From contig NZ_AP023355.1 of NCBI RefSeq assembly GCF_016865425.1, forward strand, positions 7,362,696 through 7,426,695: a stretch of 64,000 bases of DNA, read 5' to 3'. Shown here piece by piece: positions 25,631 through 36,874 of this stretch. The notes under the pieces are model-generated. The model did not search any database, was not told where the DNA came from, and worked only from the letters and a program-made list of their open reading frames with translations. The stretch's first letter is position 1. The number at the start of each line of letters is the position of its first letter. The position numbers were made by a program, and so were the translations under genes. The stretch comes from Actinocatenispora thailandica (GTDB lineage: Bacteria > Actinomycetota > Actinomycetes > Mycobacteriales > Micromonosporaceae).

Positions 25631-26189
25631 CTCGTGCTCACCCTGCTCCGAGCGCCGCCGCGAGGGCCGGGATGGTGCGGTTGCTGTGCGCTACGACACC
25701 GCACTGCCGCGCCCGGCCGGTGTGGCCGCATTGATCCTGAGCCGTTCGGCCCGTAATCTTCCCGTTCGTCGGGAGGGTGGCTGCGGGGGCGGCCACGGGG
25801 GCCAGCCGGACGCGGACACCGAGGGTGCCGCCATGTGCCAGGGGTGTCGCAAGATCAACAAAGTGTACAGTGCTGGCCGTACGCGAGAGACAGGTCGGAA
25901 TCGGGCGCCGTGCGGGGGCCGGCGGAGCGTAAGGGGAGGCTCGGCAGGTGGTTGCGGCCCACGAGGCGAGAACGCATCCGTTGCCTGTTTTGCGATCTCT
26001 GATCGTCTTTGGTGTTTCGATGCCCCGTCGCACACGCGGTCCGATCCCGGCCGCCGAACGGCTGACAGGGTGTGGCGCGAGCAGCCTGTCCGTGAGTAGG
26101 GTGCGGTCTTCGTCCGAATTGAACGAAGACGTGCGCGCCTCATCGCGGAATCAGCATGATGTCCGTTACCGGCCGTGTTGTGGAGCATC
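25631..26189. other. Intergenic region upstream of the conservon
   Basis: About 560 bases, less GC-rich than the genes. Holds the inverted repeat at 26107-26129. A Cys/Arg-rich 88-codon reading frame from ATG 25833 has GAGGG upstream, but no codon bias, and was not accepted. Confidence 0.4.
26107..26129. promoter_or_regulatory. Inverted repeat upstream of cvnA
   Basis: Perfect 7-base arms TCTTCGT and ACGAAGA with a 9-base spacer, 60 bases before the cvnA start. Position fits an operator or promoter overlap; no known regulator matched. Confidence 0.4.
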
Positions 26190-29158
26190 GTGAAGAAGCA
26201 ATCTCAAGATACGGGAACGACGTCGCGTATCAAGGACTCGAAGCCGCCGGCGTCCATCAAGGCCCGCTTCATCCGGGTCGTGCTCATCCCCAGCATCGCC
26301 CTGGTGATCATGTGGGCGATCATGGCCGGCTACTTCGTCTTCAACGGCCTCTACACCCGCGAACTCGCCAAGAGCGTGCAGGACGTCTCGCTGCCGGCGC
26401 TGACCGGTCTGTCGTCGCTGCAGAAGGAACGCTCGCTCAGCATGGCGCAGATCGCCAAGCCCGGGAACAGCCAGGCGCTGCGCGCCCAGCGGCAGCAGAC
26501 CGACTCCGGCGTCGAGCAGATGCAGCAGACCGCCGCCGACGTGCTCGGCGCCGCCCCAGCCGACATCAAGTCGAAGCTGAACACGCTGAACGCGGACCTC
26601 GACCAGCTGCCGGACATCCGCCGCAAGATCGATGCGCGCACCGCGAGCGCGGCCGACACGTTCAGCTTCTACAACAAGGTTCTGGACGCGGCGGCCGCGC
26701 TGTTCGACGCGCAGGCACGGTTCTCCACCGAGACCGACACGTTGCAGGGCGCCGTCGCCGGTACCCAGCTGTTCCACATCGCCGACCTGCAGTCCCGGGC
26801 CGGCTCGATCATCACCGGGGCGTTCGCCTCCGGTCGCTTCACCGCCGACGACCTGCAGCAGTTCCACACCCTGGTCGGTGCCTACCACGATGAGCTGCAG
26901 ACCGTCACGCCGTTGCGCGCCGACGTGCAACAGCAGTACGACAAGCTGGTGCGCGGGTCGGACTGGGCCACGCTGACCGCCGCCGAGCAGCAGCTGGTGG
27001 CGCACGGCGCGTGGTCCGGGCACGTACCGAACGGGCTCGGCATCGACGCCCAGCAGTGGCAGCAGGCGTCGACCAACATCTCCGACACCCTGCTGGCGAT
27101 GACCACCAGGCAGGGCTCCGAGGTCGCGGCCGCCTACCTGGACAGCGGAAACAACAACCTGCTGCTCGCCGGTGGCGGCAGCCTCGTCGCGCTGCTGGTC
27201 GTGGTCGCCGCGGTCTGGCTGGCGATCCGTCGGTCCCGGCTGCTGGTCGACGGCACGGTGAAGGTCGGCCTGGACGCGATCGCCGCCGAGTCCAAGGCGA
27301 TCGCCGCCGCACTGCCGGAGGCGCTGGACCGGATCGGCCGCGGTGAACAGGTCGAGGTCCAGTCGCTGATGCCGGCCGACGACGAGAACGCGGTCAACGG
27401 CCAGGCGGTCGGCGCGGTCGAGATCAAGACGGTGCAGGACGCGGTCCGCCAGACCAGCCTCAGCGCGATGGAGGCGGCCAGCGCCGAGGCCATCGCCCGC
27501 AAGAACAGCCGGCAGAACCTGGTACTCGCGGCCCGCCGGTCGCAGCGCTGGCTGTCCACCCTGGCGGTCGGGCTGCGTGACCTGGAGCGCGCCGAGCAGG
27601 ACGACCCGGACAAGCTGGAGAAGGTCTACGCGCTGCAGCACAAGATCACCACGCTGCGCGGCGACAACGACAACCTGATCATCCTCGGCGGCGGCGACAT
27701 CGGTCGCACCCGCCGCACCTCCGAGTGGATCGACGACGTGCTCGGCGCGGCGAAGGCGCAGTGCGAGCAGTTCCGTCGGGTGCGGGTCGAGGCCGGCCCG
27801 AAGGTGAAGGTCAGCGCGAGCGCCGTGCTGCCGATCAGCCACCTGCTCGCCCAACTGCTCAACAACGCGGTCGCGTTCTCGCACCCGCCGACGCAGGTAC
27901 TGATGACCTCCTCGCCGGTGGCCGCCGGGCTGGTGGTGGAGATCGAGGACCGCGGCATCGGGATGTCCACCGAGGAGCGCGAACGCGCCAACGCGCTGAT
28001 CCGCGAGGCGCCGGAGCTGGTCTCCTCGGCGAACGTGCAGAAGCTCGGCTTCCTGGTCGTCGCCTCCGTCGCGCAGCGGTTCAACATCCGGGTCGAGCTG
28101 AAGGACTCCGCGTACGGCGGCGTCAAGGCGATCGTGCTGATCCCCAACGACCTGCTGGACCGCGCCGGCTCGGACAACACCGGCGACCTCGGTGCCGGCC
28201 GCCGGGCACTGCCGGAACCGCCCGCCGAGCCGGCACCGGTCGGCCCCGCGCCCACCTCCTGGGCCGAGACCCGTACCGAGCAGGCGCCGTGGGAGGACCG
28301 CCCCGGCTGGGGAGACAGCGGTTCGCGGACCGAGGCGGCGCCGGTCGGCCCCGCGCCCACCTCCTGGGCCGACACCCGCACCGAGCCGGTCCAGCGCGAG
28401 GATCGCCCCACCCCGGGATGGGGGAGACAGCGCCCCGGGCCGAACCGTCCTGGCCGGAGCCGGCGGCCCGGCGCGAGCCGCCGTCGCCGCACCCGGTGTC
28501 GCCGGCGCCGCGGCCCGAACCGGTACGGCGGCCGGAGCCCGTGCTCCCGGCCCGCGCCGAGTCGAACGAGCTGTCCGACAACACGATCCAGTTCCCGGCC
28601 ATCGATCCGTTCGGCGACGCCCGCGGCAGCGGAACCCGCGAGCATGCGCCGGCGCCTACGCCGCGGCGGCCGGAACCGGGCGGTGCAGAACCCGAACGTC
28701 CAGACATGGGTGGTCATGGCGTGGATGCTGCCGACGTGAGCCTGCCGCAACGGCGGTCGACCGTACCCGGCCGCTCCGGTGCCGAGCACGGCGCGCACCG
28801 GGCGAGCGGTGCCGAGGAGAGCGCGCCGCCGCGGCCCCGCCCGTACCCGACGCCGCGGGAACGGCAGGACGAGCCGGAGGTGCCCGTCCTGGGTGACGCC
28901 GGGCCGGCGCCCGCGCCGAACGGCAACGGCCAGTCCACCTCCGCCGGGCTGCCCATCCGGGTTCGGCAGGCCAGCCTCGCGCCGGGACTGCGCCGGCCGC
29001 GGGTCGAGTCGAACGAACCCACCCAGGCGGTGCCGACCCACACCGCCGATCAGGCCAGGCTCCGCTTCGCCGCGTTCCAGCAGGGCATGACCGCGGGACG
29101 GCAGGCCAACGAGAACTCCACCGACACGGTCACAGAGAACAGGAACAGCGATGGCTGA
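26190..29158 (+). CDS. cvnA: Conservon sensor histidine kinase (CvnA-like), frameshifted
   Basis: Membrane sensor of 989 residues if one base is restored. Helices at about 16-40 and 323-347 flank an extracytoplasmic nitrate-sensor-like region; a HAMP-like stretch, a degenerate kinase core (RSQRWLSTLAVGLRDLERAE) and HATPase (HLLAQLLNNAVAFSHPP, IEDRGIGMS) follow. The Pro-rich tail contains two 35-residue imperfect repeats. At 28420-28424 a run of five G breaks the frame; a sixth G restores a tail ending LPIRVRQASLAPGLR and FAAFQQGMTAGRQ, the conserved CvnA terminus. Without it the protein ends at 28739 in an Arg-rich artefact. GTG 26190 has GGAG four bases upstream. It anchors the CvnBCD signalling unit at the membrane. 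Confidence 0.85.
28236..28378 (+). repeat. Direct repeat within cvnA
   Basis: Two 38-base copies (28236-28273 and 28341-28378, one mismatch) 105 bases apart encode GPAPTSWA-[ED]-TRTE in the disordered tail. The run that breaks the frame (28420-28424) lies in the GGGGAGACAG segment, which also has an earlier counterpart at about 28307-28316. Confidence 0.8.
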
Positions 29159-29573
29159 CGTCATGAATCCGCACCTGGTGCACCTGCTGGATCGGCTCGT
29201 CGAGGACGTCGAGGGGGTCAGCGCCGCGGTGGTGTCGACCGACGGCCTGATCATCCAGCGGTCCAGCGGCCTGTCCAAGAACGCCGGCGACCAGCTCGCC
29301 GCCCAGTGCTCCGGCCTGGCCAGCCTGTCCCGTGCCATCACCCAGTCCGAGTACGTCAACGGTGGCCCGGTGCAGCAGACGATGATCGAGATGCAGGACA
29401 AGATGCTGTTCATCATCTCGGCCGGGCAGAACGCGTGCCTGGTGCTGCTCACCCCGGCCGAGGACGTCAACCTCGGCAACGTGGCGTTCTCGATGACCCG
29501 GATGGTGGCACAGGTCGGTCGGCACCTCAGCGCGGAGCAGCGAGTCGCGGCCGGCTTCGCGCCGAGTTCGTGA
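29151..29573 (+). CDS. cvnB: Roadblock/LC7-domain protein (CvnB-like)
   Basis: Single Roadblock/LC7 domain of 140 residues: LLDRLVEDVEGVSAAVVSTDG, then LIIQRSSGLSK and MLFIISAGQNACLVLL. Such proteins act as regulators of small Ras-like GTPases, here CvnD. The start overlaps the cvnA stop by eight bases, and its ribosome site AGGAA is inside cvnA. Membrane association is through the CvnA complex. Confidence 0.93.
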   Translation: MADVMNPHLVHLLDRLVEDVEGVSAAVVSTDGLIIQRSSGLSKNAGDQLAAQCSGLASLSRAITQSEYVNGGPVQQTMIEMQDKMLFIISAGQNACLVLLTPAEDVNLGNVAFSMTRMVAQVGRHLSAEQRVAAGFAPSS

Positions 29574-29589
29574 CCGAGGGCGGCTTGTG

Positions 29590-29958
29590 ATGGCTAATGC
29601 CGACGAACAGTGGGCCGACGAATCGGCCGCGCCCCTGTACGACAACTATTCGCGCATCGGTGGTCGGGCGCGGGCGCGGCACAGCCTGAGCCTCGACACC
29701 CAGGTACGCGCGGTCGGCAGCGTCGACCGCGCCGCCCTTGCCGTCGAGCACGCGCAGATCCTCGAACTGCTGGCGAACCGCTGGCTGTCGGTCGCCGAGA
29801 TCGCCGCGCACCTGCGGACCACGATGAACGTGATCCGGGTGCACCTCAGCGACCTGCTGGAGGAGAGGCTGGTGGCGATCAGCTCGTCGGCCGGCCGGCG
29901 TGCCCGGCCGTCCAAGGAAGACCTGCAGAAGGTCATCAATCACCTCCGAGCGATGTGA
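29590..29958 (+). CDS. cvnC: DUF742 protein (CvnC-like)
   Basis: DUF742 protein of 122 residues. ADESAAPLYDNYSRIGGRARA is followed by a winged-helix-like region (ILELLANRWLSVAEIAAHL, VIRVHLSDLLEERLVAI). Conservon members of this kind associate with CvnB and CvnD. GTG 29587 just before the ATG is an alternative start with better spacing to GAGGG. Its stop overlaps a GTGA where the next gene could begin. Confidence 0.92.
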   Translation: MANADEQWADESAAPLYDNYSRIGGRARARHSLSLDTQVRAVGSVDRAALAVEHAQILELLANRWLSVAEIAAHLRTTMNVIRVHLSDLLEERLVAISSSAGRRARPSKEDLQKVINHLRAM

Positions 29959-29969
29959 AGGGACAGGGA

Positions 29970-30539
29970 GTGGGTCCGCAGTCGATCAAGGTGATTGTGG
30001 CCGGCGGTTTCGGCACCGGGAAGACGACGTTGGTCGGCGCGGTGTCCGAGATCCCGCCGCTGACCACCGAGGAGGTACTCACCCGGGTCAGCGAGGGCGT
30101 CGACGACACCGGTGGTATCGAGTCGAAGACCACGACCACGGTCGCGCTGGACTTCGGTCGCCGCACCATCACCAACGAGCTGGTGCTCTACCTGTTCGGT
30201 ACGCCGGGGCAGGACCGGTTCTGGTTCATGTGGGACGAGCTGTCGCTCGGCGCCACCGGCGCCGTCGTGCTGGTCGATCCGCGTCGGCTGGACAGCAGCT
30301 TCCCCGCCATCGACTACTTCGAGGTGCGCGGGATCCCGTTCGTGGTGGCCGTCAACCTGTTCCACGGGCAGCGCAAGCACACCCTGGACGAGGTACGGGA
30401 AGCGTTGCAGCTGGAGGATTCCTCGGTGCCGCTGCTGGAGTGCGACGCCCGGGACGCGCCGTCCTGCCGTTCGGCGCTGATCGTGCTGGTCGAGCACGCG
30501 ATGGCCCGGCTCCCGGTGGTCCCCGAACCCGCCAAGTGA
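29970..30539 (+). CDS. cvnD: Ras-like GTP-binding protein (CvnD-like)
   Basis: Small GTPase of 189 residues. The P-loop is GGFGTGKTT near residue 12, switch II GTPGQDRFWFMWDE, and a reduced G4 (VAVNLF) as is usual in this bacterial family. It is the signalling output of the conservon. GTG 29970 follows AAGGGA by six bases; GTG 29955, overlapping the cvnC stop, is an alternative. No cytochrome P450 (CvnE) follows, so the operon has four genes. Confidence 0.92.
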   Translation: MGPQSIKVIVAGGFGTGKTTLVGAVSEIPPLTTEEVLTRVSEGVDDTGGIESKTTTTVALDFGRRTITNELVLYLFGTPGQDRFWFMWDELSLGATGAVVLVDPRRLDSSFPAIDYFEVRGIPFVVAVNLFHGQRKHTLDEVREALQLEDSSVPLLECDARDAPSCRSALIVLVEHAMARLPVVPEPAK

Positions 30540-30550
30540 CGGCGGGCGCC

Positions 30551-30582
30551 GCGGGGCCGGAACCCGGTCGGCGCGGCCCCGC
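30551..30582 (+). terminator. Terminator hairpin after the conservon
   Basis: A nine-base stem (GCGGGGCCG at 30551-30559 with 30574-30582) and a 14-base loop containing a second short pairing lie just after the cvnD stop, before the convergent methyltransferase gene. Confidence 0.55.
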
Positions 30583-30628
30583 CTGCTGGCGGTCCGGGCG
30601 AGTGCCCGGACCGCGCGGACGACCGGCC

Positions 30629-31504
30629 TCAGCGCGGCTTGGTGGCCACCCACCAGCCCACGCTGAACACGCCGGCGCCGCGCGCGGCGTCCAGCGCGTT
30701 CTTGCCGTCGCGCACCAGATCGCCGGACTCCTTGCCCTGGTAGCTGAGCCACTTCTCGCGGTCTTCGGGCGGCGTGGATCCCCAGCACTCGATGCCCGCG
30801 AACTCGTCGACCGCCTCGGCCACGACGAAACCGGCCGCCCGCATCCAGTTGGCGTAACCGTCGAGGGTTCCGAGACCGGCCAGCCGGATGTGCTCGCAGA
30901 CCGGATCGATGATCGCGGCGATCTGCTCGTCGGTCTGGTACTCGCCGAACGGGCGCTGGATCCAGTCGAGCCCGAACAGCGTGCCGCCGGGCCTGATCCG
31001 GGAGTACGCCGCGGCCATGAACCTGTCCTTGTCCGGGACATGGCACACCGACTCGAAGAAGCAGACGGCGTCGAACGACTCCGCCGGCCAGCTCTCGAGG
31101 GTGCGGTACTCGTAGGGGTCGACGGTGACGAAGGAGACCCGGTCGGTCATGCCGCGCTGCTGCGCGCGGAGCCGGGCCTCCCGGGTCAGCGAGTCGGCAC
31201 TGGAGACCCCGACGAACCGCGCGCCGGTCATCTCCGCCATGTTCATGGTGCCGCCGCCGACCCCGGACCCGAACTCCAGCACCGTGTCGCCGGCCTTGAT
31301 GCCGGCCTTCCCGAGGAGCCGTCGCTTCATCTCGCGGGCGGAGTCCGCCGGGGACATGCCGAGCTGCTCCGCCTCGCGGATGCCGTGGGACCAGTCGCCG
31401 CCCGGCATCAGCTTGTCGAAGAACGATCCGGCTCCCTCACCGCCCTCGTCGACGGCGGTGTAGTAGCGGGTGGCGCGTTCTTCCGGGGTGAGTGTGTCAG
31501 TCAT
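30629..31504 (-). CDS. SAM-dependent methyltransferase (class I)
   Basis: Methyltransferase of 291 residues. Motif I is VLEFGSGVGGGTMNMAE near residue 75, acidic motif II region FVTVDPYEYRT, and post-II FDAVCFFESVCHVPD. The length and the N-terminal helical cap (YYTAVDEGGEGAGSFFDKLM) recall sterol/tocopherol-type or prenyl-chain methyltransferases. ATG 31504 follows GGAGGG by five bases. It is the last gene of a three-gene minus-strand unit with a tryptophanase and an indole prenyltransferase, so its acceptor is likely a prenylated indole (N, C or prenyl carbon; not decidable here). Confidence 0.82.
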   Translation of the reverse strand: MTDTLTPEERATRYYTAVDEGGEGAGSFFDKLMPGGDWSHGIREAEQLGMSPADSAREMKRRLLGKAGIKAGDTVLEFGSGVGGGTMNMAEMTGARFVGVSSADSLTREARLRAQQRGMTDRVSFVTVDPYEYRTLESWPAESFDAVCFFESVCHVPDKDRFMAAAYSRIRPGGTLFGLDWIQRPFGEYQTDEQIAAIIDPVCEHIRLAGLGTLDGYANWMRAAGFVVAEAVDEFAGIECWGSTPPEDREKWLSYQGKESGDLVRDGKNALDAARGAGVFSVGWWVATKPR

Positions 31505-31655
31505 GACCGCCCTCCGACTTTCGCCCGTCTGGGTCTGCTCGCCTGTCCATCCAGCATTCTTCGTACCGGCCCGGCACCCGGCGTGCCCGGCGGGCGCGGC
31601 AGGGCCGCCCGCCCGGCGCCCGGCGAGCCACCGCCGGACGAGGAACCGGCCCGGC

Positions 31656-33056
31656 TCACTGCGCGGGTACCTGGTCGTACCAGGCCTCGAAGGGGCGCAG
31701 CATGGCCGGCGCCCGCACGATGCGATAGCCGGGCCAGCGCTGCGGGTCCTTGGCGACCTCGGCGAGCACGCTGCCCACGTACCGGATGTGGTTCTCGGTG
31801 TAGACCCGCCGCGGCAGCGCCAGCCGGACCAGCTCGAACGGCGCCGGCGTGACGAGCCGGAACTCGTCGTCCAGCTCGCCGAGGTAGAGCGACCCCAGCT
31901 CGCTGCTGCGGATGCCGCCCTGCAGGTAGAGCGCGACGGCGAGCGAGTGGCCGGGGAACTGGGCCGGCGGGATGTGCTGCATCAGCCGGCCGGCGTTGAG
32001 GTAGATGGCGTGCAGGCCGGCCGGCCGGATGCTGTCCACGCCGGCGTCCCGGGCCACGTCGGCCAGCAACTGCCCGGTGCGCTCCCGGGACCGCAGGTAC
32101 GCGGGGTCGACGCTCTCCTCGATGCCCTGCGCCGCCTCCTCCAGCGTCTCCCCGGTCATCCCGCCGTAGGTGGCGAAGCCGGCGGTGGCGATCACCCGGC
32201 CCCGGAAGGCCGCGGCGAGGTTCTCGTCGCGGATGCCGATCGCGCCGCCGCCGGGCGACATCGGGTCCTTCTTGAGCGAGATGACGAACCCGTCGGCCAG
32301 ATCGAACTCGACCCCGGCCACCTCGCGCGGGGTGGCGTCGGCGAACTCCGCCTCGCGCCGGATCACCAGCCACGCGTTCTCCGCGTAACGGGCGGCGTCG
32401 AGGAACATCGGCACCCGGTACCGCTGGCAGATCTCGCGGGTGGCGCGCAGGTTGGCGATGGACACCGGCTGGCCGCCGCCGCCGTTGTTGGTGATGGTCA
32501 TCAGGACCAGGCCGACCCGGTGCCCGTCCGGCCCGGCGAGCAGCGCTTCCAGCGCGGCGACGTCGATGTTGCCCTTGAACGGGTGGTCGCTGTCCAGGTC
32601 GGCGGCTTCCGGGCAGGGCAGGTTGACCGGGGTGGCGCCGGCCAGCTGCACGTTCGCCGAGGTGGTGTCGAAGTGCGTGTTGGACACCGAGAACTGGCCG
32701 GCGGACAGCATCGTGGAGAACACCACGCTCTCCGCGGTACGGCCCTGGGTGCACGGAATGATGTGCTCGAAGCCGGAGAGGGACCGCAGCGCGCCGGCGA
32801 ACCGCTCCCACGACTCCGAGGTGGCGTAGCGCTCGTCGGCGCGGGCGCTCGCGGCGCGCTGCTCGATGGACAGCGCCCCGGTGCCGGAGTCGGACAGCGC
32901 GTCGATGGTGACCAGCCGGGCCGGCAGCCGGAATGGGTTGTATCCCGCGGCCCGGAAACCTTCCTCGCGCTGCTGGCGGGTGGTCAGCGACAGCCGCCGC
33001 ACGACGGCGTTGCAGTACGGATCGAGGTCCGCCATCACCGGGTCGAAGGATGTCAC
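31656..33056 (-). CDS. Tryptophanase-family PLP lyase
   Basis: Beta-eliminating PLP enzyme (tryptophanase/tyrosine phenol-lyase family), 466 residues. TITNNGGGGQPVS near 188 and FLDAARYAENAW near 218 are family hallmarks. ISLKKDPMSPGGGAI near 260-274 holds the Schiff-base lysine, Lys263. The context suggests cleavage of prenyl-tryptophan to prenyl-indole, pyruvate and ammonia, as in known Streptomyces prenyltransferase/tryptophanase pairs. GTG 33056 follows GAGGAG by six bases. Gaps of about 150 bases to both neighbours allow an operon but with separate ribosome sites. Tyrosine phenol-lyase activity is an alternative. Confidence 0.9.
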   Translation of the reverse strand: MTSFDPVMADLDPYCNAVVRRLSLTTRQQREEGFRAAGYNPFRLPARLVTIDALSDSGTGALSIEQRAASARADERYATSESWERFAGALRSLSGFEHIIPCTQGRTAESVVFSTMLSAGQFSVSNTHFDTTSANVQLAGATPVNLPCPEAADLDSDHPFKGNIDVAALEALLAGPDGHRVGLVLMTITNNGGGGQPVSIANLRATREICQRYRVPMFLDAARYAENAWLVIRREAEFADATPREVAGVEFDLADGFVISLKKDPMSPGGGAIGIRDENLAAAFRGRVIATAGFATYGGMTGETLEEAAQGIEESVDPAYLRSRERTGQLLADVARDAGVDSIRPAGLHAIYLNAGRLMQHIPPAQFPGHSLAVALYLQGGIRSSELGSLYLGELDDEFRLVTPAPFELVRLALPRRVYTENHIRYVGSVLAEVAKDPQRWPGYRIVRAPAMLRPFEAWYDQVPAQ

Positions 33057-33202
33057 GTCGTGCTCCTCACTCGCGGGGTGCGCCGCCCGGGTGCCGCGGC
33101 CCGCCCATTGTGGATCTTGAACGTGCCGACCCGCCAGCCTCTGTTGCCTGGTCCACTACGGCCGGCGCCGAAGCCCGCGTTCCGGTCGCGGCCGGTGACC
33201 GA

Positions 33203-34327
33203 TCAGTGCTGCAGGACCAGGTGCCGGGCCAGCTCGTCGCGGCGCCGTGGCGGCTCCACCCGGTACGCCTCGGAGGACAGGTAGACGGTCAGCCCCGGCC
33301 TGCCGTCACCGAGCCGCAACGAGACGTGCGCGAGCAGCCCCACCCCGTCGGCGAGGTCGCGCCGGGCGACGGCGTCGATCGCCCGGTCGATCAGCCCGGT
33401 GTCGTGCCCGTACCGGTCGGCCAGCGCGAGCACCCGGTCGCGCGCCTCGACGTCGTCCGTGACGTAGCTGCGGATCGGCACGTAGAGGCTGTACCCGCTG
33501 GGCCGGTCGGAGTCCCCCTCGACGAACGTGTAGCTGGACACCAGCGGCCGGCCACCGAAGACGGTGGCGTCGCCGCCGGCCAGCCGGCAGAACTCGGCGA
33601 CCTCGTCGGCGTCGACCCCGGGTGCCGCGGCGGCGGCGCGGGCCGCGTCGGCGGCGGTGGCGTCGTGGTGCGAGACGTACACCTTGACCCGGGAGCGCGG
33701 CCCGTCGTGCAGGTCCAGCGCGAAGAACGTGTACCGGTCGAGGTCGCCCTCGGCGGCGTCCGGCCGCATCGCGTACCGGCGCAGCGTCGGGTAGGCGTGG
33801 CCGAGGTTCAGCCGGTTCAGCGACTCGGCGACCCGGTCGGCGGCGTGCTCCCGGCCGCGGCAGTTGGGGTCGAAGTACACCTTGATGGCGGGCTGCTGTG
33901 CGGCCTTGAACACCAGCGAGAACCACAGCGCGAACTGGCTGACCGGCGGCGCGCTCAGGAACAGGTCGGCGACCTGGTGGTACCGGTCCAGGCTCAGCCG
34001 GTACCGCCGCGCCCAGGTGGCGAGCAGCCGGCGGGCGGCGTCCATGTTGGCGCCCAGCCCGGGTTGGGCGGCGAGGGCCTCGGCGAGGACGCGGATGGTG
34101 GGCTGGCGTCCGTGGTCCAGCGCGACGGAGAACTCGACCGGGGTGTGGTCGTCGGAGACGTCCGACGGCCATGGCGGCGCGCAGGTGGTCCGCCGGTCAC
34201 TGTCGGTGCCGAGCAGGTCGGCGAGCAGCGCCCCCGCGCCGTGGTCGTCGGCCCGCCCGACTGCGGCGGTCAGGGCCTGCAGTTGGCCGTTGGCGTACTC
34301 GTAGAGTGAGGAATTCTCGTTGTTCAT
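33203..34327 (-). CDS. Indole/tryptophan prenyltransferase (ABBA fold)
   Basis: Aromatic prenyltransferase of 374 residues, DMATS-like and normal for bacterial indole enzymes. Family features in order: VEFSVALDHG (substrate Glu region), then IRVLAEALA, FALWFSLVF, PAIKVYFDPNCRG (pyrophosphate-binding Lys and Tyr), SRVKVYVSHHD, PSGYSLYVPIRSYV, and PGLTVYLSSEAYRV. It attaches dimethylallyl (or a longer prenyl) to the indole ring of tryptophan or indole; position is not predictable. ATG 34327 follows GGAG by five bases. First gene of the prenyl-indole unit. An AT-rich region with a -10-like TATATT lies just upstream. Confidence 0.9.
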   Translation of the reverse strand: MNNENSSLYEYANGQLQALTAAVGRADDHGAGALLADLLGTDSDRRTTCAPPWPSDVSDDHTPVEFSVALDHGRQPTIRVLAEALAAQPGLGANMDAARRLLATWARRYRLSLDRYHQVADLFLSAPPVSQFALWFSLVFKAAQQPAIKVYFDPNCRGREHAADRVAESLNRLNLGHAYPTLRRYAMRPDAAEGDLDRYTFFALDLHDGPRSRVKVYVSHHDATAADAARAAAAAPGVDADEVAEFCRLAGGDATVFGGRPLVSSYTFVEGDSDRPSGYSLYVPIRSYVTDDVEARDRVLALADRYGHDTGLIDRAIDAVARRDLADGVGLLAHVSLRLGDGRPGLTVYLSSEAYRVEPPRRRDELARHLVLQH

Positions 34328-34770
34328 TCCGACTCCGGTTTCCCTCGGCCCCCGATGCCGACCCATATCAAGATCATGACGAGTCATTGAATATAGAACC
34401 GGAGGTCAGAATGTGAAACCACTACGTTTGTCCAAACCGGGTTGTGAAGTGTGAGCCGAGACACGTATTTCACTCTGTGAACAGAATTCATAACTATGGG
34501 TGTCGATATTTGGTGGGTTTCCTGGCCGCTCGTCCGAGTCTGCCAGCTCGGTGATCATCGAAGTATGCATCGACACACATCACTCTCCGTTGTCGCCATC
34601 GCGCCGAGCGACAGTGACCACCGAATCGACGGCAGAGCAAGATCCTCTGTTCGAATGCTACTTTCCGTAATGCGTCCGCGGATCAATGGAGCAGGTCGTT
34701 CAATTCGCGGCGAGGTTAATCGACGATTTGCTGCGCGCCAATCTGCAATGTATTCTCCGGCGCCGACAAC
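34328..34770. other. AT-rich intergenic region upstream of the prenyltransferase
   Basis: About 440 bases that are clearly lower in GC than anything else here, with stretches such as ATTGAATATAGAA and GAATTCATAACTATG. It carries the probable promoter of the prenyl-indole unit. Any reading frames across it lack the strong third-position GC bias of the genes, so I call it noncoding. Confidence 0.6.
34376..34395 (-). promoter_or_regulatory. Predicted promoter -10 element and palindrome for the prenyl-indole unit
   Basis: On the minus strand TATATT (34395-34390) is a good -10 hexamer. The palindrome ATGAC-GA-GTCAT (34376-34387) sits just downstream where transcription would start, a position where a repressor could act. 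No convincing -35 was found at 17 bases. Confidence 0.45.
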
Positions 34771-35063: not shown

Positions 35064-35963
35064 TCACTCCGGTACCGGTGGGCCCGGCTCGGCCAGCGGC
35101 GCGAGCAGATCGCCGTCGCTGTCCACTCGGGACAGTGCCGCCTCCGGTCCGCCGGTCACCGGCCGGCCGGCCTCCACCTCGGCCCAGTGCAGCGGCAGCG
35201 ACACCAGCGGCGCGGCTCCGGCGCGCAGCGAGTACGGCGCGACGGTGGTCTTGGCGGCGTTGTTCTGGCTCCAGTCGATGAACACCTTGCCCGGTCGCAG
35301 CGACCGGGTCATCCGGTCCACCACCCGGTCCGGGTCGCGCTGCGCCAGCCGGTGCGCGAGTCGCTTCGCATAACCGGACACCACCGGCGCCGGCTGGCTG
35401 GCCGCGATCGGGCACATCAGCTGCATCCCCTTGCGGCCACTGGTCTTCGGGTACGCGCGGATCCCGTCGGCGGCGAGTTCCGCGCGCAGCGCCAGGGCGA
35501 CCGCGAAGCACTCGGGCAGCCCGGCCGGCGGGCCCGGGTCGAGGTCGAAGACGATCAGATCCGGCGGCTGGGCGGCACCCGCCGCATCGACCCTCCACTG
35601 TGGAACGTGCAGTTCCAGTGCGGCCAGGTTGGCCAGCCACACCAGGGTGGCCAGCTCGTCGACCACGACGAAGTCGACCGTCTCCCGGTCCTTCGTGGAG
35701 CCGGGCACCGGCAACGTCACGGTCCGCACCCACTCCGGGGTGTGCGACGGGGCGTTCTTCTCGAAGAACGAACCCGCTGCCGCCCCGTTCGGGTACCGCT
35801 TGCGGGTCAGCGGCCGACCGGCCAGGTGCGGCAACAGCACCGGCGCGATCCTGGTGTAGTAGTCGATCAGCTCACCCTTGGTGAAGTCCGGGAACATCGG
35901 CTTGTCCAGATTGGACAGCGACAACTCCCGGTCGCCCACCCGTACCCTGACTCGCTCCGTCAC
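35064..35963 (-). CDS. ligD: LigD-type DNA polymerase/primase domain protein
   Basis: Stand-alone LigD polymerase domain (archaeo-eukaryotic primase type), 299 residues. LSNLDKPMFPDFTKGELIDYY begins the domain; the catalytic acidic pair is in DLIVFDLDPGPP; KTSGRKGMQLM gives the nucleotide-binding segment and KVFIDWSQN the third acid. It fills gaps at broken ends in NHEJ. GTG 35963 overlaps the upstream ligase stop as GTGA, with GGGAGG just before. No nuclease (3'-phosphoesterase) domain is present. Divergent Ku completes the pathway. Confidence 0.92.
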   Translation of the reverse strand: MTERVRVRVGDRELSLSNLDKPMFPDFTKGELIDYYTRIAPVLLPHLAGRPLTRKRYPNGAAAGSFFEKNAPSHTPEWVRTVTLPVPGSTKDRETVDFVVVDELATLVWLANLAALELHVPQWRVDAAGAAQPPDLIVFDLDPGPPAGLPECFAVALALRAELAADGIRAYPKTSGRKGMQLMCPIAASQPAPVVSGYAKRLAHRLAQRDPDRVVDRMTRSLRPGKVFIDWSQNNAAKTTVAPYSLRAGAAPLVSLPLHWAEVEAGRPVTGGPEAALSRVDSDGDLLAPLAEPGPPVPE

Positions 35964-36874
35964 GGTGCCTCCCGGTCGGTGCGGACGCGGTGCAACCGGG
36001 GGAAGCGGAGCCGCCCGTCGGCGGTCCGGTTCCCGTACCTCACCTCTACCACGATCTGCGGCGTCACCCAGTGCGCGCCGCGCGCGTCCTCGGCCGGTAC
36101 CGGGTCGGCGAACGGCGAGGTGTCCGCCGCCAGCGGCGCCAGCAACGCCAGCAACTCGCGTTCCCTGGCCGCGGAGATACCGCCGCCGACCCGACCGCGA
36201 TAGCGCAACCCGGTCCCGTCGTACTCGCCGACCAGCAGCGCGCCGATCGCCCGCGCGCCGGGCCGGTACCCGCCGACGACCAGGTCGTCGTGGTGCACCC
36301 GCTTCACCTTGACCCAGTCGGCGGAGCGCCGGTCCGGCCGGTACCGGCTGTCCAGCCGCTTCGCGACCACGCCCTCCAGGCCGTTCTCCTCGGCCGCGGC
36401 CCAGGTCGCCGCACCGTCGTCGAACACCGGTGGGACCAGCCAGCGCGGCCCGTCGGCGATCCGGTCGTGCAGCGCGGCACGACGCACCCGGTACGGCTCG
36501 GCGGTCAGGTCGGTGCCGTCCACCCGGAGCAGGTCGAAGATCAGGTACGTGACGGGCAGCCGGGCGGCGAGCGCCGCGGCCCGGTGCTCGTCGCGTACGT
36601 GCATCCGCTCGGCGAGCGCGGCGAACGACGGCCCGGCCGGCCCGAGTACCGCGATCTCGCCGTCGAGCACCGGTTCCCCGGGCAGCGCCGCCAACCCGGC
36701 GAGTTCCGGGTAGGCCACCGTGATGTCCGCGCCGCTGCGGGCGGACAGCCGCAGCCGCCCGCCGGAGATCTCGGCGATCGCGCGAATTCCGTCCCATTTG
36801 AACTCGTACGACCAGCCGGGACCGGTTGGCAGCTCCCCCGCGACCGCGAGCATCGGCCGGTACCCACCCGCCAT
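35960..36874 (-). CDS. ATP-dependent DNA ligase (LigD ligase-domain type)
   Basis: ATP-dependent ligase of 304 residues. Nucleotidyl-lysine Lys26 is in YEFKWDGIRA; motif III is TYLIFDLLRVDG, IV EGVVAKRLDSRY and V DWVKVK. The OB-fold domain (about 205-300) includes GLRYRGRVGGGIS. It seals strand breaks, here with the polymerase encoded next and Ku. In mycobacteria these domains are one protein; here they are separate, overlapping genes. ATG 36874. It and Ku are divergent, sharing 174 bases. Confidence 0.92.
   Translation of the reverse strand: MAGGYRPMLAVAGELPTGPGWSYEFKWDGIRAIAEISGGRLRLSARSGADITVAYPELAGLAALPGEPVLDGEIAVLGPAGPSFAALAERMHVRDEHRAAALAARLPVTYLIFDLLRVDGTDLTAEPYRVRRAALHDRIADGPRWLVPPVFDDGAATWAAAEENGLEGVVAKRLDSRYRPDRRSADWVKVKRVHHDDLVVGGYRPGARAIGALLVGEYDGTGLRYRGRVGGGISAARERELLALLAPLAADTSPFADPVPAEDARGAHWVTPQIVVEVRYGNRTADGRLRFPRLHRVRTDREAP

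Follow-up and report, generated by a model that had tools for sequence, protein, structure and literature searches.

A predicted Type A prenylindole cluster with an added methyltransferase gene in Actinocatenispora thailandica

INTRODUCTION

Gene clusters that combine an indole prenyltransferase with a conservon have been divided into Type A, which adds a tryptophanase, and Type B, which adds a flavin-dependent monooxygenase (FMO), in the available text of Ozaki et al. (2013; PMC3617294). The IptA-type system of Streptomyces sp. SN-593 is the Type A reference there, and one Type A cluster leads to 6-dimethylallylindole-3-carbaldehyde (PMC3617294). In the present study, we analysed a 64,000-nucleotide stretch of Actinocatenispora thailandica DNA (GCF_016865425.1, contig NZ_AP023355.1, positions 7,362,696 to 7,426,695; hereafter the window), in which genes for a tryptophan prenyltransferase (PT), a tryptophanase (TnaA) and an S-adenosylmethionine (SAM)-dependent methyltransferase (MT) stand beside a conservon. 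Judged from its sequence, the locus is predicted to be a Type A prenylindole cluster with an added MT, and its product would be a prenylated indole methylated on the prenylated ring, a reading to which we assign a probability of roughly 0.55. Since prenyltransferase, tryptophanase and conservon together make up the published Type A arrangement (PMC3617294), most of this finding is already known, and MT is the new part of the cluster. No report of such an MT with a prenylindole cluster, or of a product of it, was among the literature matches listed.

RESULTS

The three minus-strand genes called in the preliminary description were borne out: PT, TnaA and MT are all present and intact, in that order, and open from start to stop. 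The unit adjoins and faces a plus-strand conservon (26175-30539), which that description had overlooked.

33203-34327, minus strand: PT, DMATS-type tryptophan prenyltransferase (ATG start, 374 amino acids (aa), Pfam Trp_DMAT PF11991)
31656-33056, minus strand: TnaA, tryptophanase (GTG start, 466 aa, PRK13238)
30629-31504, minus strand: MT, class I SAM-dependent methyltransferase (ATG start, 291 aa, Methyltransf_23/25/11)
34390-34417, minus strand: promoter-like site TTCACA-16-TATATT before PT (consensus scan, 10/12 matches; not functional evidence)
26175-28739, plus strand: conservon sensor histidine kinase, cvnA-like (NIT PF08376 and HATPase_c)
29151-29573, plus strand: conservon roadblock/LC7 protein, cvnB-like (Robl_LC7 PF03259)
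29587-29958, plus strand: conservon DUF742 protein, cvnC-like (PF05331)
29970-30539, plus strand: conservon ATP/GTP-binding protein (GTPase), cvnD-like (PF03029)

PT belongs to Pfam PF11991 (59.6 bits, E 4.5e-16, cut-off 25), and it shares 54% identity over 95% coverage with P0053 of Micromonospora olivasterospora, a sequence that reads as PDB 6zrx and presumably prenylates tryptophan at C6. PT scores 374.7 bits against 6zrx and 210.1 bits against PriB (5inj), and also matches PDB 7w8u, named 6-dimethylallyltryptophan synthase. The matches to PF11991, 6zrx and PriB mark PT as the IptA-like prenyltransferase of a Type A cluster, in a comparison made without IptA itself. Residues E65, R79, K149, Y151, R213, K215 and Y217, among other columns, are invariant in 28 aligned sequences including the window's. 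TnaA supplies the Type A tryptophanase, scoring 519 bits against PRK13238 (cut-off 285) and E 2.6e-100 against the PDB tryptophanase 8sij. Its Lys263, singled out earlier, is indeed the second lysine within SLKKD, which we take to be the residue holding pyridoxal phosphate. Because TnaA lies inside PRK13238 but below the cut-off of the tryptophanase equivalog TIGR02617 (347.5 bits; cut-off 825.8), its pocket may possibly have been altered for a larger substrate. The conservon contains all four genes expected of Type A (kinase, roadblock, DUF742 and GTPase). A 140-aa frame (28736-29158) without a Pfam match lies between its kinase and roadblock genes and may be an additional gene or an error of gene calling.

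PT and TnaA are separated by 146 bp and TnaA and MT by 151 bp, as calculated from the coordinates, and a GGAG/GAGG-like stretch precedes each of the three starts. A consensus scan of 30400-34700 detected one sigma-70-like site (minus strand, 34417-34390; 0.2 expected) and, against 1.0 expected from shuffled sequence, nothing resembling a terminator, so the sequence fits a single PT-TnaA-MT transcript. The minus-strand unit had been drawn to near 34395; this does not hold for the PT start, which is most likely at 34327: the -10 of the promoter-like site reaches as far as 34390, and P0001, the protein database entry from the window's genome, has 374 aa. A LigD primase-polymerase gene (35064-35990), probably unrelated, lies directly upstream of PT on the same strand.

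A set of 354 genomes from the window's family was searched for MT and PT (E <= 1e-60 for MT, E <= 1e-50 for PT). MT occurred in 12 and PT in 47 genomes, and all 12 MT genomes were within the 47 (hypergeometric P 7.8e-12, a value that overstates the case because the genomes are non-independent samples). MT and PT thus likely belong to one pathway, in agreement with the earlier idea that MT acts in prenylindole formation. As the family genomes are related, the test was repeated inside one genus (g40), where PT accompanied MT in 5/5 genomes, compared with 20/52 of the g40 genomes counted in the search output (P 0.006, which more g40 genomes would lower). The control, a styrene-monooxygenase-like protein present in 68 genomes, overlapped with PT in 12/68 (P 0.16), showing no enrichment. 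In an order-wide sample of 397 genomes, MT was found at E <= 1e-50 in four, namely the window's genome and three of genus g102 (Lentzea), all three with PT. TnaA was present in 11 of the 12 family genomes with MT; the A. comari genome carries MT and PT, and no TnaA match at E <= 1e-60 was found there.

The arrangement of PT loci was compared in 80 loci from named genomes, kept from 95 confirmed ones, with flanks of up to 10 kb that were shorter at contig ends. Within these flanks, TnaA was present in 76/80, the conservon GTPase in 73/80 and an MT relative in 3/80. No gene was called between TnaA and the GTPase in 58/80 loci, and one or more genes were called there in 9/80, including two loci with a styrene-monooxygenase-like gene; the conservon was on the PT side in 4/80, and TnaA or the GTPase was missing from the gene calls in 9/80, calls that miss the TnaA label in L008, where tblastn detects one. 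The published Type A supports the earlier view that the PT/tryptophanase pair is a prenylindole pathway (PMC3617294). The proposal that MT replaces a usual oxidase is not supported, because Type A is defined by tryptophanase and the FMO belongs to Type B (PMC3617294), and because an oxidase stood between TnaA and the GTPase in just 2 of the 80 loci and no gene in the 58 mentioned above.

Other genes were observed around PT. A styrene-monooxygenase-like flavin oxidase lies between the tryptophanase and the conservon in Dactylosporangium (L006:12666-13931, and L010). Genes of the isopentenyl-diphosphate isomerase family, presumed to supply dimethylallyl diphosphate (DMAPP), occur in 14/80 loci, and the NF002995 isomerase was confirmed at L119:1940-2494 and L004:16912-17448. 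In Lentzea alba, a glycosyltransferase, an amine-oxidase-like flavoprotein and a lysyl-oxidase-domain protein precede PT (L011:6611-9647), each having relatives somewhere in 15 of the mapped loci.

The surroundings of MT were mapped over a 10 kb range at 13 loci in the 12 family genomes, some stretches being shortened by contig ends. PT, TnaA and a conservon gene were each found near MT at four loci and a styrene-monooxygenase-like gene at three; PT, TnaA or a conservon gene lay near MT at 6/13 loci, or 8/13 when the monooxygenase-like gene is counted. An LuxR-type regulator of about 800 aa was near MT at 7/13. The gene order is PT-TnaA-MT in the window, PT-TnaA-isopentenyl diphosphate (IPP) isomerase-MT in G163 from another genus, and MT-HDO-PT in A. 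comari, HDO being the AetD-like diiron protein described below; TnaA and MT are divergent in G067. In Planosporangium mesophilum (L007; MT locus L123) and, outside the family, in Lentzea indica (L017), MT lies with PT-TnaA on the far side of the conservon. The trio, which the preliminary description had proposed to look for elsewhere, is thus not unique, since G163, L007 and L017 also have PT-TnaA and MT. In a tree of 19 rows, the window's MT paired firmly with that of A. comari (100/100), though many other forks are too weak for the number of origins of the linkage to be read.

Several observations weigh against assigning MT to the pathway and the locus to the Type A scheme. PT scores below the cut-off of TIGR03429 for DMATS family aromatic prenyltransferases (112.7 bits; cut-off 163.85). 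The family-wide searches for MT and PT scored the best five or six candidates per genome. MT is absent within the flanks of 77/80 PT loci and would thus be optional. At five of the 13 family MT loci, the stretch examined contains neither PT nor TnaA, and neither a conservon nor a monooxygenase gene; none of ten Lentzea stretches (L160-L169) has a cluster partner near MT, which leaves 10 of 11 Lentzea MTs without one. All 11 Lentzea genomes with MT (of 24) carry PT, a co-occurrence that says nothing on the tie because 22/24 carry PT. The absence of TnaA from A. comari could be an assembly gap, since the contig stops about 0.8 kb away from PT at L003. The loci without MT or without partners favour a reading in which MT has no link to the pathway and just happens to sit between TnaA and the conservon. 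The presence of PT in 12/12 MT genomes against 47/354 overall, the unbiased control gene, and the proximity of MT to PT, TnaA or a conservon in several differing arrangements speak against it, and we regard this reading as improbable.

MT matches Pfam Methyltransf_23/25/11 (E 5.5e-13 to 7.6e-12) and has a fold of the RebM/MitM/GPP-methyltransferase type (GPP, geranyl diphosphate). Its best sequence matches are MitM, RebM and AtmM, and its structure neighbours span methyltransferases acting on O, N and C as well as a cyclase. His155 and Asp180 of MT, invariant among 68 aligned MTs including the window's, align with a His and an Asp of MitM, RebM and AtmM. We take 5gm1 to be TleD of the teleocidin pathway, which matches MT by profile at E 6.8e-15. 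MT could in principle C-methylate the prenyl part, either at the dimethylallyl double bond, as TleD does in teleocidin, or on DMAPP or IPP, as GPP methyltransferases act on GPP. This is unlikely, though it deserves some weight, because MitM, RebM and AtmM outscore 5gm1 by sequence, the 5gm1 match is confined to the SAM-binding part (residues 64-182), and MT scores 20.6 bits against NF041943, the geranyl diphosphate 2-C-methyltransferase equivalog model (cut-off 400). It is very doubtful that MT is a TleD-like cyclising enzyme, in which the alkene of 6-dimethylallylindole would be methylated and the tertiary cation would close on the adjacent ring carbon, so that the product would be a cyclopenta-fused indole bearing the added methyl group. 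If true, a cyclising MT would mean a new way of turning tryptophan into an annulated indole with three enzymes under the control of a conservon.

With regard to the site on the ring, N1 is tentatively the leading candidate, with the His155/Asp180 pair assisting its methylation. Confidence in N1 is low because of the mixed chemistry of the MT structure neighbours. A ring position other than N1 or C3 is an unlikely target. Among the indole carbons, C3 is the most nucleophilic, and it becomes free solely after TnaA cleavage, so that MT could act on the released dimethylallylindole to give a prenylated skatole; the MT gene follows TnaA in the window and lies beside it in G067. However, MT is kept beside PT in A. 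comari, where TnaA was not found, and no named indole C3 methyltransferase is among the MT structure matches, an absence from a list that is not a test. C3 methylation is therefore rather improbable. Considering that A. comari has MT and PT without a detected TnaA, the methylated site would be one that exists whether or not the amino-acid side chain has been removed, as far as one genome can indicate.

A styrene-monooxygenase-like oxidase lies beside MT relatives at L112, L115 and L121. O-methylation of an indoxyl made by such an oxidase is unlikely to be the common role of MT, because the oxidase was not matched at E <= 1e-40 in the genome from which the window comes.

An AetD-like protein with a heme-oxygenase fold lies directly beside PT in A. 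comari (L003:9262-9948) and A. rupis (L002:9287-9985), and also occurs in L124 and L125, where its neighbour is a distant DMATS relative. Standing where the tryptophanase of Type A or the FMO of Type B would be, it possibly represents a third type of prenylindole cluster, and these AetD-like/PT loci are predicted to yield a prenylindole nitrile. The A. comari diiron protein was found in 8/354 family genomes, three of them PT genomes (P 0.08). A nitrile route was rejected for the window's genome, in which the protein has no match (E <= 1e-20), nor has it one in the window.

DISCUSSION

Considering these results, we propose the following scenario for the window's locus. PT may transfer a dimethylallyl group onto L-tryptophan, probably at C6; TnaA may convert dimethylallyl-tryptophan to dimethylallylindole, pyruvate and ammonia; and MT may use SAM to methylate the ring of the prenylated indole. 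The conservon, with its membrane kinase and small GTPase, would likely control the PT-TnaA-MT unit. Type A clusters are widespread, and the available text of PMC3617294 names a single product line for them. Found solely in PT-bearing genomes of the family and in several gene orders, MT would mark out a branch of bacterial prenylindole chemistry that leads to methylated products, and this branch may help to explain the purpose of conservon-linked prenylindoles.

The window shares with the Type A clusters of Ozaki et al. a tryptophan prenyltransferase, a tryptophanase and a four-gene conservon (PMC3617294). It differs in having MT between the tryptophanase and the conservon, the word methyltransferase being absent from the main text of that paper, and in that the conservon lies downstream of the biosynthetic genes and faces them, whereas it lies upstream in PMC3617294. 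Nocardioazine is likewise an actinomycete indole derived from tryptophan, prenylated and N- and C-methylated, but it is a diketopiperazine of two D-tryptophans, and a tryptophanase goes unmentioned in the available text of PMC10156859. In the teleocidin cluster, too, an indole prenyltransferase is accompanied by a SAM methyltransferase that falls into the broad class of MT (5gm1, E 6.8e-15), though the window's MT is best matched by MitM, RebM and AtmM instead of TleD. Furthermore, teleocidin is built from a dipeptide made by a nonribosomal peptide synthetase, whereas the window's tryptophanase would strip the amino-acid side chain from its substrate.
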